Part shown: positions 120 to 32,821 of the stretch, in pieces
Position numbering within the stretch: the stretch's first letter is position 1
Layout: each line of letters opens with the position of its first letter
From: Ignavibacteriales bacterium CG18_big_fil_WC_8_21_14_2_50_31_20
GTDB lineage: Bacteria > Bacteroidota > Ignavibacteria > Ignavibacteriales > Melioribacteraceae
Direction of reading: 5' to 3'
NCBI GenBank assembly: GCA_002786785.1
Contig: PCUD01000058.1
Span: 1 to 33,730, forward strand
Length of the DNA: 33,730 nt
Program-made: the position numbers and the translations under genes
The notes under the pieces: model-generated
What the model was told of the DNA's origin: nothing
Seen by the model: only the letters and a program-made list of their open reading frames with translations
Database searches by the model: none

Positions 120-2747
120 TTGAAACTACACTTTGACCCAAATCAGAAATTCCAGCAAGATGCAATAAATTCTATTGTAGATTTATTTGAAGGACAACCA
201 CTTGCAGAGGGTGATTTTAGTTTTTCTATGGATTCAGCTAATGAATTTTTTAGTGAAGGTGGAATTGGAAACAGACTTAAAATTAGTGAAGATAAGATTT
301 TAGAAAATATAAAAGCTGTTCAATTAAGAAATGAGTTAGAAGTTTCAAGCGAATTAGATGGTATGAATTTTACGGTTGAAATGGAGACAGGCACTGGGAA
401 AACCTATGTTTACTTGCGTACAATTTATGAATTGAACGAAAAATATGGATTTAAGAAATTTGTAATTGTAGTTCCATCCATTGCAATAAGGGAAGGTGTA
501 TTAAAAAATCTTGGAATAACATTTGAGCATTTCCAAAATCTATACGATAAAACGCCAGTAAACTACGACGTATATGATTCGAAGCGTGTTTCAAACCTCA
601 GAAATTTTGCAGTAAGCAATAATATTCAAATACTTGTAATTAATATTGACTCATTTGCAAAAGATGAAAACATAATAAACAAACCAAATGATAAATTGTT
701 AGGAAAAAAGCCGATAGAGTTTATTCAAACTACATTGCCATTTGTTATAGTTGATGAACCTCAGAACATGGAAACGGATATACGAAAGAGAGTAATTAAA
801 AATTTAAACCCACTTTGCACTTTACGATATTCTGCAACACATACAAATCGTTATAATATGGTTTACAACCTAGACCCTGTAAAAGCTTATGACCTTGGAT
901 TAGTAAAACAAATTGAAGTTGATTCAATTACAACAGAAAATGATTTTAACGGGGCATTTATTAGCTTAGAGAAAGTTATTTCGAAAAAAGGAAGTAAACC
1001 CTCAGCCACAATTAAAATAGATGTTAATGATGTGAATGGTGTAAAAAGAAAATCGGTTATAGCAAAGGTTGGCGACGATTTATATGATTTATCAAAAAAG
1101 AGAGAAATATATAAATCTGGTTATATAGTTAATAACATTGATGCATATGAAAATTGTGTTGAATTATCTAATGGTGAAATATTATTTGTTGGCGATACTT
1201 TAGGTGGTTTAATAGATGAAATTATGAAAGTCCAGATTCGTAAAACTATTGAAGAGCATTTTTTTAAGGAAAGGAAATTGAAAGAGAAAGGAATAAAAGT
1301 CCTATCTCTTTTCTTTATTGATAGAGTTGCAAATTATAGAGATTATGATTCTGATGGATTGGTTGCCAAAGGAAAATTTGCTAAATGGTTTGAGGAGATT
1401 TATAAAGAAATATCCTCAAAGAGTGCATTTAAAGATTTGATTCCATTTGAAGCAAAAGAAGTACATAATGGCTATTTCTCATCAGATAAAAGGGGAAAAT
1501 GGCGAGATACAAAAGGGAATACAATTGCAGATGACGATACTTTTAAGCTAATTATGCAAAAAAAAGAAGAATTGTTAGATTCAAATATTCCATTAAGATT
1601 TATTTTTAGTCATTCAGCTTTAAGAGAAGGATGGGATAATCCAAATGTTTTTCAAATATGCACATTAAACGAAACAAAATCAGAACTTAAAAAACGACAA
1701 GAAATTGGAAGAGGTTTACGGTTATCCGTAAATGCAGATGGGCTTAGAATACATGATAAAAACATCAATAGATTAACAGTTATTGCAAATGAATCGTATG
1801 AAGATTTTGCAAAAAAATTACAAACTGAAATAGAAGTTGATTGTGGAGTTTCGTTTGAAGGAAGAATTAAAAACAAAGCTGATAGAGAAACTGTAAAATA
1901 CCGTAAGGGTCTTGAACTTGATGATAAATTCAAAGAGATATGGGATAAAATAAAATATAGAACTACTTATAGAGTTGATTATCAAACTTCTGAATTAGTT
2001 TTGTTAGCAACAAAAGCTGTAAAAGAAATGCCTCAGATTAAAGCAAGTCTGATTAAAGAGACAAAAAATGCTATAAAATTTGATGAAACCGGAATTGTTT
2101 CAGACACAAAAGCATCATACGTAACAGTGTTAAAAGACAACTTTATGATTCCAGATGTTTTAACCTATATTCAAGAAAGGACTGAGCTTACACGCTCAAC
2201 AGTTTTTGAAATATTAGAAAAATCCGGAAGATTGGCAGACGTTTTAATAAACCCTCAATTATTTCTTGATAATACAATTCTTGCTATTAAAACTGTACTT
2301 ACAAATTTGATGATTGATGGAATTAAATACGAAAGAATAGGTAGTCTTAAATATGAGATGAGACTATTTGAGGATTTTCCTATTCATATAAATAATTTAA
2401 CATTTACAATTAATAACGAAGAAAAAACTATATACAGTAACTTTGTACCACTCGATTCACAAGTTGAATATAGATTTGCAGAAGAATGTGAAAGTAGGGA
2501 TGATATTGAGTTTTATTTCAAATTGCCATTTTGGTTTAAAATTGAAACTCCGATTGGTCCATATAATCATGATTGGGCGTTAATTAAGAAAAATGAAAAA
2601 ACTTTGTATTTTGTAGCTGAAACAAAGTCTGAAAATCAAGAACTACGCATCAGTGAAAAGCAAAAAATAAAATGTGGTGAAGCACATTTTAATGAATTTG
2701 AAGATGTCAATTATAAACAAATCACAAAAATAAGTGACCTCGATTAG
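120..2747 (+). CDS. res: Type III restriction enzyme, Res (helicase/endonuclease) subunit
   Basis: An 875-residue protein of the usual length for Res, the ATP-dependent translocase and nuclease of type III restriction-modification. Visible superfamily 2 helicase motifs are Walker A METGTGKT (residues 88-95), motif Ia IVVPSIAIREG (about 116-125), motif II DEPQ (212-215), motif III RYSATH (about 235) and the late motifs SALREGWDNPNVFQ and EIGRGLRLS. The C-terminus carries a PD-(D/E)xK nuclease signature: D818 in HDWALI, then E834 and K836 in VAETK. The start is TTG at 120; no in-frame ATG lies nearby, and the protein opens KLHFDPNQKFQ as this family does. The methylase partner Mod, needed for target recognition, is not downstream, where trpA converges 37 nt away, so it must lie upstream of the window or be missing. 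The gene looks intact. Confidence 0.93.
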   Translation: MKLHFDPNQKFQQDAINSIVDLFEGQPLAEGDFSFSMDSANEFFSEGGIGNRLKISEDKILENIKAVQLRNELEVSSELDGMNFTVEMETGTGKTYVYLRTIYELNEKYGFKKFVIVVPSIAIREGVLKNLGITFEHFQNLYDKTPVNYDVYDSKRVSNLRNFAVSNNIQILVINIDSFAKDENIINKPNDKLLGKKPIEFIQTTLPFVIVDEPQNMETDIRKRVIKNLNPLCTLRYSATHTNRYNMVYNLDPVKAYDLGLVKQIEVDSITTENDFNGAFISLEKVISKKGSKPSATIKIDVNDVNGVKRKSVIAKVGDDLYDLSKKREIYKSGYIVNNIDAYENCVELSNGEILFVGDTLGGLIDEIMKVQIRKTIEEHFFKERKLKEKGIKVLSLFFIDRVANYRDYDSDGLVAKGKFAKWFEEIYKEISSKSAFKDLIPFEAKEVHNGYFSSDKRGKWRDTKGNTIADDDTFKLIMQKKEELLDSNIPLRFIFSHSALREGWDNPNVFQICTLNETKSELKKRQEIGRGLRLSVNADGLRIHDKNINRLTVIANESYEDFAKKLQTEIEVDCGVSFEGRIKNKADRETVKYRKGLELDDKFKEIWDKIKYRTTYRVDYQTSELVLLATKAVKEMPQIKASLIKETKNAIKFDETGIVSDTKASYVTVLKDNFMIPDVLTYIQERTELTRSTVFEILEKSGRLADVLINPQLFLDNTILAIKTVLTNLMIDGIKYERIGSLKYEMRLFEDFPIHINNLTFTINNEEKTIYSNFVPLDSQVEYRFAEECESRDDIEFYFKLPFWFKIETPIGPYNHDWALIKKNEKTLYFVAETKSENQELRISEKQKIKCGEAHFNEFEDVNYKQITKISDLD

Positions 2748-2784
2748 AAAATTGTAATTCAGTATTTAACATGAAATTATTAAA

Positions 2785-3567
2785 TTACACTTCACACGCG
2801 TGTTTTAGTGATTTAATAAGATTTATTGTTTCATCAATACTTTCGTTTTGCAGCGATTTAATAATTGCGCTTCCAACAATAAAGCCATCGGCAAAAGGGG
2901 AAAGTTGTTTAATGTTTTCTGGTTTGGATATACCAAATCCAACAAGCATTTTGTTATTGTTTACAATTTGATAAGTGGATTTTAGATTTTCTATTATCTT
3001 ATCATCAAATCCAGAACGCACACCAGTAGTGCCAGAAACCGAGACGCAGTATAGGAAGCCAGTGCTTTTGTTATCGAGTGTAATAATGCGATCGTTATCA
3101 CTTGTTGGAGTGGTTAAAAGAACTTTATCCAGCTTATCAGAAAATGAAGAGAAGAAATCGTCAAATTCTTCAAGAGGAACGTCGGGGATAATAAGTCCAT
3201 CAACGCCAGCGTTTATAGCATCCTGCTCAAATTGTTCTTTTCCGTATTGCATAATTGTGTTTGCGTAGCCCATTAAAATTAGTGGAGTATTGTTGCACTT
3301 TCTAATCTGCTCAGCAAATTGAAAAGTCTGTTTTTGTGTAATTCCATTTTGCAATGCAATTTGAGACGATTGCTGAATTACTCCGCCATCGGCAAGCGGA
3401 TCGCTAAAAGGCATTCCCAATTCTATTAAATCTGCGCCTGCTTCAATAATTCTGTTTGTGTTATACAAAAATTTATCAATTGTCGGAAATCCCGATGTAA
3501 GAAAAACTGATAATGCTTTTTTACCATCGTTGTTTATTTGTTCAATCGTGTTCTTAATCTTACTCAT
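2785..3567 (-). CDS. trpA: Tryptophan synthase alpha subunit
   Basis: TrpA (260 residues, normal length) cleaves indole-3-glycerol phosphate to indole and glyceraldehyde 3-phosphate and passes indole to TrpB. The catalytic segment IELGMPFSDPLADG holds the conserved Glu and Asp; LLTTPTSD and the loop YCVSVSGTTGVR are also present. It is the last gene of the trp cluster and is separated from trpB by a flavoprotein gene and by a 278-nt spacer (3568-3845) that contains an inserted palindromic element. Adjacent trpB-trpA is the usual arrangement, so this separation is unusual. The gene converges with res. Confidence 0.97.
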   Translation of the reverse strand: MSKIKNTIEQINNDGKKALSVFLTSGFPTIDKFLYNTNRIIEAGADLIELGMPFSDPLADGGVIQQSSQIALQNGITQKQTFQFAEQIRKCNNTPLILMGYANTIMQYGKEQFEQDAINAGVDGLIIPDVPLEEFDDFFSSFSDKLDKVLLTTPTSDNDRIITLDNKSTGFLYCVSVSGTTGVRSGFDDKIIENLKSTYQIVNNNKMLVGFGISKPENIKQLSPFADGFIVGSAIIKSLQNESIDETINLIKSLKHACEV

Positions 3568-3664
3568 AGTTTTATCTCTTAATTTTACTTCTATAATTCG
3601 TTATTATTTCTAAATTCTTTCATAAATCAAAAGGGCACACACCCCTTGATACTTCGCATCTTCC

Positions 3665-3813
3665 CCACTCAAGCAATGATGTCAACTTAAGCTTTGGTCA
3701 TTCCGCGATGTTCTTACGCGGAATCTAATTTATGGCTAAGATTCCCAACAAGAGCATTTGGGAATGACATAACTTAAAAGTATTTTCTTAAGTTGACAAC
3801 ATTGCCTCTCAAG
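3665..3813. mobile_element. 131-bp MITE-like palindromic element with 9-bp flanking direct repeats
   Basis: The element body is 3674-3804. It begins CAATGATGTCAACTTAAG (3674-3691) and ends with the inverted copy CTTAAGTTGACAACATTG (3787-3804), matching at 17 of 18 positions. Directly outside lie CCACTCAAG (3665-3673) and CCTCTCAAG (3805-3813), 8 of 9 identical and in direct orientation, as expected of a target duplication. Inside is a second palindrome, GTCATTCC...GGAATGAC (3697-3768), of the kind seen in other spacers here. No coding capacity is visible. The size, terminal repeats and duplication suggest a non-autonomous transposable element, but only one copy is in the window. It makes up about half of the spacer upstream of trpA, which otherwise shows only a short AAGGG/CCCTT hairpin near 3631-3647. 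Confidence 0.6.
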
Positions 3814-28541: not shown

Positions 28542-28567
28542 TAATTATTCACAACATGGAGTTAAAA

Positions 28568-29371
28568 ATGAAAAAACTTGGACTAATTTTCTTATTGGTT
28601 TTATTAGCTAGTGGAACTGCCTATTCACAATCAATTGGGGCTTTTGTTGGTTATGGACAGTCCGCTTTTGGAGATGATGTTGAGGAACAAGCTAATTATA
28701 TTCCAGTTGGTGCCCAACTTTTATTTGGCACTGGCGGTAATTTTGAAATTGGTGCCGAAGTTAGTTATGCTGTTGTTCCTTTCGCTTTTTCAATGGGTGA
28801 GGATGTTGGTGATATGAAAGTTGGACAGCTTTATTATGGTGCCATGGCAAAATTTAAATTTGGAACTGGTGGTGGAGTTTGGCCTTATGTTAGGGCTGGT
28901 GCTGGATTATATACTGGTTCCCTTGAATATGATTTTACAGACGAAATTAATGAATTTGGATTTGAGGATGTAGAAATGGATTTCAAAAGTGCATTTGGAT
29001 TTAATGTTGGCGCTGGTGCTGAAATAAATTTAACCCCAAATATGCATTAGAAAAGCATTAATGCATATTCGACTAACTCGCTCTAAGCGTTTGTACTATT
29101 GTTCACTTAACCTTTTGGGTACAAACGCTAAGACCGAGTAAGTCGGGGCAAGTTCGCTTCTATATTGATTGTTCTTTTTCTAAAATTGTTTATTTTAATC
29201 CTATTGCATTATCCATGTTTAAGCGGAAATAACGGGTTATTTGCAGAATTAGTTTATCATATTGTTGATAGAGAACTTGATATTGCTGAAAAAGATTTAG
29301 CTGATAGTGAATCAGCAAAAATGACTGGGAATAACTTCGCAATTCAAGTTGGATTTAAATTTGGATTGTAA
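28568..29371 (+). pseudogene. Outer-membrane beta-barrel protein gene interrupted by a 184-bp mobile element
   Basis: The gene opens with a signal peptide (KKLGLIFLLVLLASGTAYSQ) and alternating barrel strands rich in Gly and aromatic residues (IGAFVGYGQSAFG, YYGAMAKFKFG, YVRAGAGLYTGSLEY). The frame meets TAG at 29048-29050 inside the inserted element and would yield a truncated protein. Removing the element plus one copy of the TTTAA duplication (189 nt, 63 codons) restores one 204-residue frame reading INL-SGNNGLFAELVYHIVDRELD and ending at a C-terminal strand FAIQVGFKFGL. The terminal Leu is a poor match to the usual C-terminal Phe. The ATG at 28568 is chosen because GGAG precedes it. The intact downstream half suggests recent inactivation. 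Confidence 0.88.
29029..29222. mobile_element. 184-bp MITE, copy 1, with TTTAA target duplication
   Basis: The element body is 29034-29217, flanked by TTTAA (29029-29033 and 29218-29222). It matches the copy at 32497-32680 at all but one position. Its ends are imperfect inverted repeats: CCCCAAATATGCATTAG against CATGGATAATGCAATAG read from the other end (10 of 17). Inside are a perfect 11-bp hairpin AATATGCATTA (29039-29049 with 29059-29069) and a long imperfect stem, 29070-29096 with 29119-29145, pairing at 24 of 27 positions around a 22-nt loop. It has no ORF. CC ends and a 5-bp AT-rich duplication fit IS1380-family behaviour, which is only a suggestion. Confidence 0.88.
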
Positions 29372-32464: not shown

Positions 32465-32821
32465 ATGTTGAATTGTAGAAAGTATTTACAATTCAACCCC
32501 AAATATGCATTAGAAAAGCATTAATGCATATTCGACTAACTCGCTCTAAGCGTTTGTACTATTGTTCACTTAACCTTTTGGGTACAAACGCTAAGACCGA
32601 GTAAGTCGGGGCAAGTTCGCTTCTATATTGATTGTTCTTTTTCTAAAATTGTTTATTTTAATCCTATTGCATTATCCAGGTTCAAAGAATTAAACCCATC
32701 AATAAGTAACATTTCACAAACTCGTTATATTAGTAAGAATAAAAATCATTTCTCGAAAATAAGAAATATTTTGCCCTCTAAAATATTTTTATCGAATTTC
32801 AGCAATTATAAGAGCATTTAA
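32465..32821 (+). pseudogene. Short ORF split by the second 184-bp element
   Basis: A strong ribosome site, AAAGGAGGT (ending 32454), lies 10 nt before an ATG at 32465. The present frame reads 19 codons and stops at 32522-32524 inside the element. Removing the element and one TTCAA repeat (189 nt) restores a 55-codon frame ending at TAA 32819-32821, 32 nt before the HydE-like gene. The predicted peptide is basic and rich in Ser, Asn and Ile, with no recognised domain. A chance ORF is possible, but the ribosome site is the best in the window. Confidence 0.4.
32492..32685. mobile_element. 184-bp MITE, copy 2, with TTCAA target duplication
   Basis: The element body is 32497-32680, flanked by TTCAA (32492-32496 and 32681-32685). 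It matches copy 1 at every position except the next-to-last base (G at 32679, T at 29216). The different duplicated pentamer shows independent insertion rather than segmental duplication, and both fit TTYAA. Copies have the same orientation. The target edge carries its own 10-bp palindrome TTGAATTGTA/TACAATTCAA (32468-32496). The rest of the 32269-32853 spacer shows nothing else except the short ORF. Confidence 0.88.

Follow-up and report, generated by a model that had tools for sequence, protein, structure and literature searches.

The window, by which we mean the whole analyzed stretch of 33,730 nt, is contig PCUD01000058.1 of assembly GCA_002786785.1 (G000, referred to as the own genome). 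It contains a gene for an outer-membrane beta-barrel protein that is split by a 184-bp element and, further downstream, a second, intergenic copy of the same element (Table 1). The sequence-only reading of this DNA had described two near-identical copies, each with its own pentamer repeat, and this description was reproduced: a single base differs between them (29216, T in copy 1 and G in copy 2). The CATG end of copy 1 was also found in other copies, so a mutation after insertion is not required to explain it. The long stem with 24 pairs in 27 positions and three symmetric 1x1 mismatches (hairpin 2) was present as first described, and the left end proved to be a hairpin too (hairpin 1), which was absent from that reading's list. 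The terminal inverted repeats are imperfect (CCCCAAATATGCATTAG / CCTGGATAATGCAATAG). With a length of 184 bp and no ORF of at least 90 aa inside, the element falls within the size class of MITEs (~30-300 bp, without a transposase gene), and it is called the MITE below.

Table 1. The interrupted barrel gene and the two MITE copies, in window positions
Feature	Positions	Strand	Description
Barrel gene 5' part	28556..29050	+	outer-membrane beta-barrel, PF13505; runs into element, TAG at 29048-29050; 164 aa
Copy 1 left 5-bp target-site duplication	29029..29033	none	TTTAA
MITE copy 1	29034..29217	+	184 bp, within barrel gene
Left terminal repeat, copy 1	29034..29054	+	CCCCAAATATGCATTAGAAAA; matches end of own-genome IS1380-family element
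Hairpin 1	29039..29069	+	terminus followed by its own inverted copy; 12 pairs, 29039-29050 with 29058-29069
Hairpin 2	29071..29144	+	long imperfect stem; 24 pairs, 29071-29097 with 29118-29144, three 1x1 mismatches
Right terminal repeat, copy 1	29200..29217	-	inward CATGGATAATGCAATAGG; most copies CCTGGATAATGCAATAGG
Copy 1 right 5-bp target-site duplication	29218..29222	none	TTTAA
Barrel gene 3' part	29223..29371	+	open in original frame; last ~50 residues of intact orthologues
Copy 2 left target-site duplication	32492..32496	none	TTCAA
MITE copy 2	32497..32680	+	184 bp, intergenic
Copy 2 right target-site duplication	32681..32685	none	TTCAA

Removal of the element together with one repeat (189 bp, 63 codons) joined the two parts of the barrel gene into one open frame, which has the previously noted 204 residues when read from the ATG at 28568 and 208 residues when read from the ATG at 28556. 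In this form, the product belongs to the OMP_b-brl barrels (PF13505). As it stands, the 164-aa ORF stops 17 bases inside the element and ~50 C-terminal residues are lost; the truncated protein would probably not work. The proposed disruption of the gene was borne out by G004, a species of the same genus, in which an intact 208-aa orthologue (78% identity) without the insert occupies the syntenic place. Its neighbors are the same as in the window, i.e., a gene for a T9SS-type C-terminal-domain protein and a convergent gene for an NtrC-type regulator, and the DNA of the window and of G004 aligned without gaps at the insertion point. A further intact orthologue (64% identity) was detected in G003. 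These insert-free genes show that the ancestral state is an empty site, and the empty site sought in relatives was thus found at the level of a sister species, not of strains.

Copy 1 was the only one of 42 intact copies from all genomes to lie inside a gene (a site was counted as such if the rejoined flanks gave an ORF of at least 70 aa across it), and the others were intergenic. This fits a young insertion that selection has yet to remove, or the barrel may simply be dispensable. Several intergenic copies were observed 0-20 bases from a stop codon. TTTAA targets supply TAA, so an inserted copy often re-creates, or directly adjoins, the stop codon of the gene upstream.

Copies, target duplications and subfamilies

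Copies of the element were counted by BLAST and pattern searches. The own genome (3.81 Mb in 182 contigs) yielded 41 matches, nine of which were 100% identical over 182-184 nt. For the 16 nt of the right end, 40 exact matches were obtained, rising to 56 when up to two mismatches were allowed (reversed control, 3). For the 20 nt of the left end, the corresponding numbers were 28 and, allowing up to three mismatches, 55 (control, 2); three of the latter 55 are the insertion sequence's own ends and a few are chance matches. Many copies are seen in half only, with a contig end or scaffold gap in the hairpin, and ~50 or more copies in this fragmented MAG is therefore a fair estimate rather than a count. 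No exact match to the element was found in viral contigs.

Perfect 5-bp target duplications (e.g., TTTAA, TTCAA and ATAAG) flanked 25 of 41 intact copies from all genomes, compared with a mean of 7.1 and a maximum of 15 when flanks were re-paired at random (2000 trials); this high random expectation is due to the strong preference for TTTAA-like targets. Both the match counts and the duplications are well above what chance would give. Some identical copies had unequal flanks (e.g., L002, L005 and L007), which could be assembly chimeras or results of recombination between copies. Many copies in one genome and duplications of constant length (5 bp) are both characteristic of MITEs and, together with the lack of an ORF, they show that the element is non-autonomous, as in the earlier view. 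Recent activity, which had also been proposed, is supported by the nine identical copies and less so by the single-base difference alone.

The MITE hairpin lies at the end of many own-genome contigs (C18, C68, C70, C76, C77, C88, C90 and C99, and further C111, C122, C126 and C148). Such ends account for the frequent breaks in assemblies of these genomes, and the MITE is a main cause of the fragmentation of G000.

Matches to the element were present in 7 of 57 relatives searched, the best being in G004 of the same genus and in G029 of another genus. A terminal pattern search revealed a diverged subfamily with ~23 right ends in G002 (same genus), whose full sequence, CCCAAATTCAGCATTAG...GCATAATCGGGG, is flanked by TTTAA pentamers. 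The motif GGCAAGTTCGCTTCTATATTG was not found outside these elements. In G004, we detected two derivatives of ~75-90 bp (C19 near 6029, L117, and C36 near 57026, L116) in which CCC(C)AAG is joined straight to the right half and neither hairpin is present. Each has its own duplication (TTTAT/TTTAT and TTTAA/TTTAA, respectively). Since an identical junction recurs at both places but the duplications differ, the deleted form itself has most likely moved; it is also possible that independent deletions occurred at the same short repeat.

Two other short repeats were observed in these genomes. L205 (contig C130 of the own genome, ~2634-2794, minus strand) contains a second short element of ~160 bp, CCCTAATTATGCAATAGAAAAT...GATTCTCCAATGCATAATCTGGG, with TTAAA repeats on both sides; its ends are similar to those of the MITE and its interior is different, and it is perhaps another MITE subfamily of the same transposase. 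In G002, a repeat with GTGTAAACGGCAATTTT(C/T)AGATTTTATAAAAGTC and GTTTACACAAAACTTTTTACACTCCC (L114, ~1830-1960; L167, ~3560-3720) disrupts two different IS1380-type transposase genes and may be another small mobile element.

IS1380-family elements with matching ends

Insertion sequences of the IS1380 family have ends starting with CC and generate A+T-rich duplications of 4-5 bp. For one member, ISEcp1, 5-bp A+T-rich duplications have been described (PMC7527135). In G002 (C155), a fragment resembling the C-terminus of an IS1380 transposase adjoins a MITE-like terminal repeat. With this fragment as a query, the same C-terminus was found at two contig edges of the own genome (start of C105 and end of C2), where the terminal repeats read inward CCCAATTATGCATTAGAAAACC (beside TTTAA) and CCCAATCTATGCATTAGAAAACC (beside TTCAA), respectively, and that of the MITE reads CCCCAAATATGCATTAGAAAAGC. 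The terminal repeat of this own-genome IS1380 end, CCCAAT-TATGCATTAGAAAA, is almost the same as the MITE's. A third, truncated copy of the end is located on C30, and the pattern of C2, C105 and C30 looks like a multicopy insertion sequence lost in assembly. The MITE thus has ends in common with an autonomous element of the same genome (C2 and C105), the transposase of which is partly assembled: the own assembly contained no complete IS1380-family transposase gene but two contig-edge 3' ends and the truncated 3' end on C30, and the 5' end of the insertion sequence was not found in it. A search of the own genome with NF033539 gave no match because the insertion sequence is lost at contig ends. 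The related 109-aa C-terminal fragment of G002 scored 23.3 bits against the same models (NF033539 and PF13701), which is below threshold.

An intact homologue was identified in G071 (C27:2213-3698). It is 1,486 bp long, has ATAAT on both sides and encodes a DDE transposase of 441 aa of the IS1380 type (NF033539, 265.8 bits with a cut-off of 180; PF13701, DDE_Tnp_1_4, 160.3 bits). Its ends (CCCAAAATTGTCAWTAG; also CCCAAAATTGTCA...) start with CC and its duplication is A+T-rich, as in the IS1380 family. Among the elements found here, it has the only complete transposase of this group, although its ends are not identical to those of the MITE. At its left end, an inverted copy of the terminus lies a few bases inside (GTCAATAG...CTAATGAC), a layout like that of MITE hairpin 1.

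These data confirm the earlier suggestion of an IS1380-family parent: IS1380 transposase genes of the own genome and of relatives carry nearly identical terminal repeats. The search for a full-length insertion sequence with matching ends succeeded in part, with an intact homologue in G071 but only fragments in the own genome. Like IS1380 insertion sequences (NF033539, PF13701; e.g., ISEcp1), the MITE has CC-start ends and 5-bp A+T-rich duplications, and its left terminal repeat is nearly identical to those of IS1380-type elements of the same genome and genus; its right end resembles the end of the insertion sequence less well than the left end does. Unlike these insertion sequences, it has no transposase gene and measures 184 bp instead of ~1.5 kb, and, as far as the two could be compared, its interior has no relation to the insertion sequence.

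Other candidate parents were rejected. The ends of the IS1380 elements of G001 and G019 (CCTAAATTGAGCGAT... and CCTGAATAATTCATAA..., respectively) do not match the left MITE end. Places in the own genome with a right end only had no transposase gene upstream, and several contained runs of N or other sequence. We also observed that the interior of the G002 MITE (L162 and L171), AATCGCTCAAGTTGG, resembles AATCGCTCAAGTTAGG, the end of a second IS1380 lineage of the genus (L100, G001); this likeness may be accidental or may reflect the way in which the interior was acquired.

Hairpins and paired changes

In an alignment of 20 elements from four genomes, 89.5% of cells pair, a percentage that is inflated because the structure was derived from one of the aligned sequences. 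Changes on both sides that keep the pair were found at 18 of 36 pairs; many of these double changes come from two G002 rows, so that there are fewer independent events than the cell counts imply. The covariation score was 0.234, compared with 0.096 for shuffles and at most 0.045 for slid versions. The default RNAalifold structure recovered only part of hairpin 2, and the hand-given structure was therefore counted separately. For hairpin 1, distinct double changes occurred in G002, G029, G004 and one own-genome copy. In both hairpins, pairing is kept by compensatory changes between subfamilies, and the G002 stem still pairs although its sequence is almost completely different.

The changes in hairpin 1 can be read simply as those of two inverted transposase sites that co-evolve, and for hairpin 2 both selection on structure and template-switch correction of palindromes are possible. 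It was guessed earlier that the long stem is recognized by a transposase or host factor. The derivative without hairpins, found at two G004 places with its own duplications, speaks against this: the long hairpin is probably not what the transposase needs, and neither hairpin appears to be necessary for transposition. As a second transposase site, the inverted terminus copy beside the left end is a stronger candidate than the long stem. We consider it possible, though rather doubtful, that selection maintains both hairpins as a functional structure of a mobile non-coding element, either in a transcript or as a DNA signal, with compensatory changes preserving them between subfamilies of at least two genera despite near-complete replacement of the stem sequence.

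The same paired changes and covariation, and the G002 stem in which nearly all of the sequence was replaced, would also fit an element whose main role is that of a structured RNA or of a regulatory repeat of the host, spread by IS1380 machinery, with the hairpins kept for that role. However, template-switch correction of palindromes or, for hairpin 1, co-evolving transposase sites also yield paired changes, and hairpin-less derivatives exist. In addition, strand and distance to neighboring genes were inconsistent at first look, and no Rfam family matched in the window, by which a known RNA family was rejected. A primary role of this kind thus seems unlikely. An integron attC site was also rejected, since copies occur singly and at scattered, mostly intergenic places with 5-bp duplications on both sides.

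Origin, movement and related systems

Target duplications of 5 bp are not specific to the IS1380 family. They are also made by Tn3-derived TIMEs (PMC4133298), and the IS1380 and IS1634 families are related, with the G071 transposase scoring 49 bits against the IS1634 model. The element might then be a MITE of another such transposon family (a Tn3-type TIME, or IS1634), its likeness to IS1380 ends being due to chance. However, the scores of its left 20 nt against the IS1380 ends were reached by 1-2 of 20,000 random window positions, presumably the MITE copies themselves, and the MITE and IS1380 elements have both target duplications and the inverted copy of the terminus in common. Tn3-derived TIMEs have terminal repeats of 38 bp, but the MITE ends are shorter, imperfect and match IS1380 elements. 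A different family is thus very improbable. An assembly artefact of the metagenome bin as the source of the repeats, which the many contig ends and scaffold N runs in the hairpin could indicate, is hardly credible, since complete copies occur inside contigs with unique flanks and matching duplications, and it is refuted for the family as a whole by subfamilies in separate assemblies of sister species.

The sequence data point strongly to a MITE that has only the two ends of an insertion sequence, was moved by an IS1380-family transposase and inserted in the barrel gene; we regard this as very probable. Given the terminal repeats common with IS1380 elements, the G071 homologue and the duplications known from ISEcp1, the element is a type I MITE with an IS1380-family partner. 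In the proposed order of events, which we infer, two ends of the insertion sequence would have been retained, with ~140 bp of hairpin-forming, non-coding DNA between them. A DDE transposase of the IS1380 family, encoded at another place in the genome, would act in trans, binding the ends CCcc-----TGCAtTAg / CCTGGATAATGCAATAG, and would then excise or copy the element. Insertion would occur into 5-bp A+T-rich targets (mostly TTTAA), which are duplicated in the process. Copy 1 would have entered the barrel gene in this way, with the reading frame ending at the TAG 17 bases in.

Known type I MITEs (MITEPye1 with IS1182, TIMEs with Tn3, and MITEAba12) are likewise short, non-coding, multicopy and mostly intergenic, with terminal repeats common with an autonomous element, target duplications and strong predicted hairpins; the difference is that the partner here belongs to the IS1380 family. 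We found no description of an IS1380-derived MITE in the literature examined, which was mainly the open literature; this is not proof that none is known. In Anabaena sp. 90, MITE insertions interrupt ORFs and create pseudogenes, and they were found from a broken ORF (PMC3542288). Those MITEs are type II and have no IS partner with the same ends, whereas such a partner was found here.

The element is a new MITE family of a known type, and the insertion event is well supported but ordinary. What it adds is the pairing of the IS1380 family with a MITE, which seems to be little described, in an uncultured Bacteroidota lineage. Because a sister species has the gene intact and several subfamilies exist, it can be used to study why bacterial MITEs retain strong hairpins that are seemingly not needed for movement.
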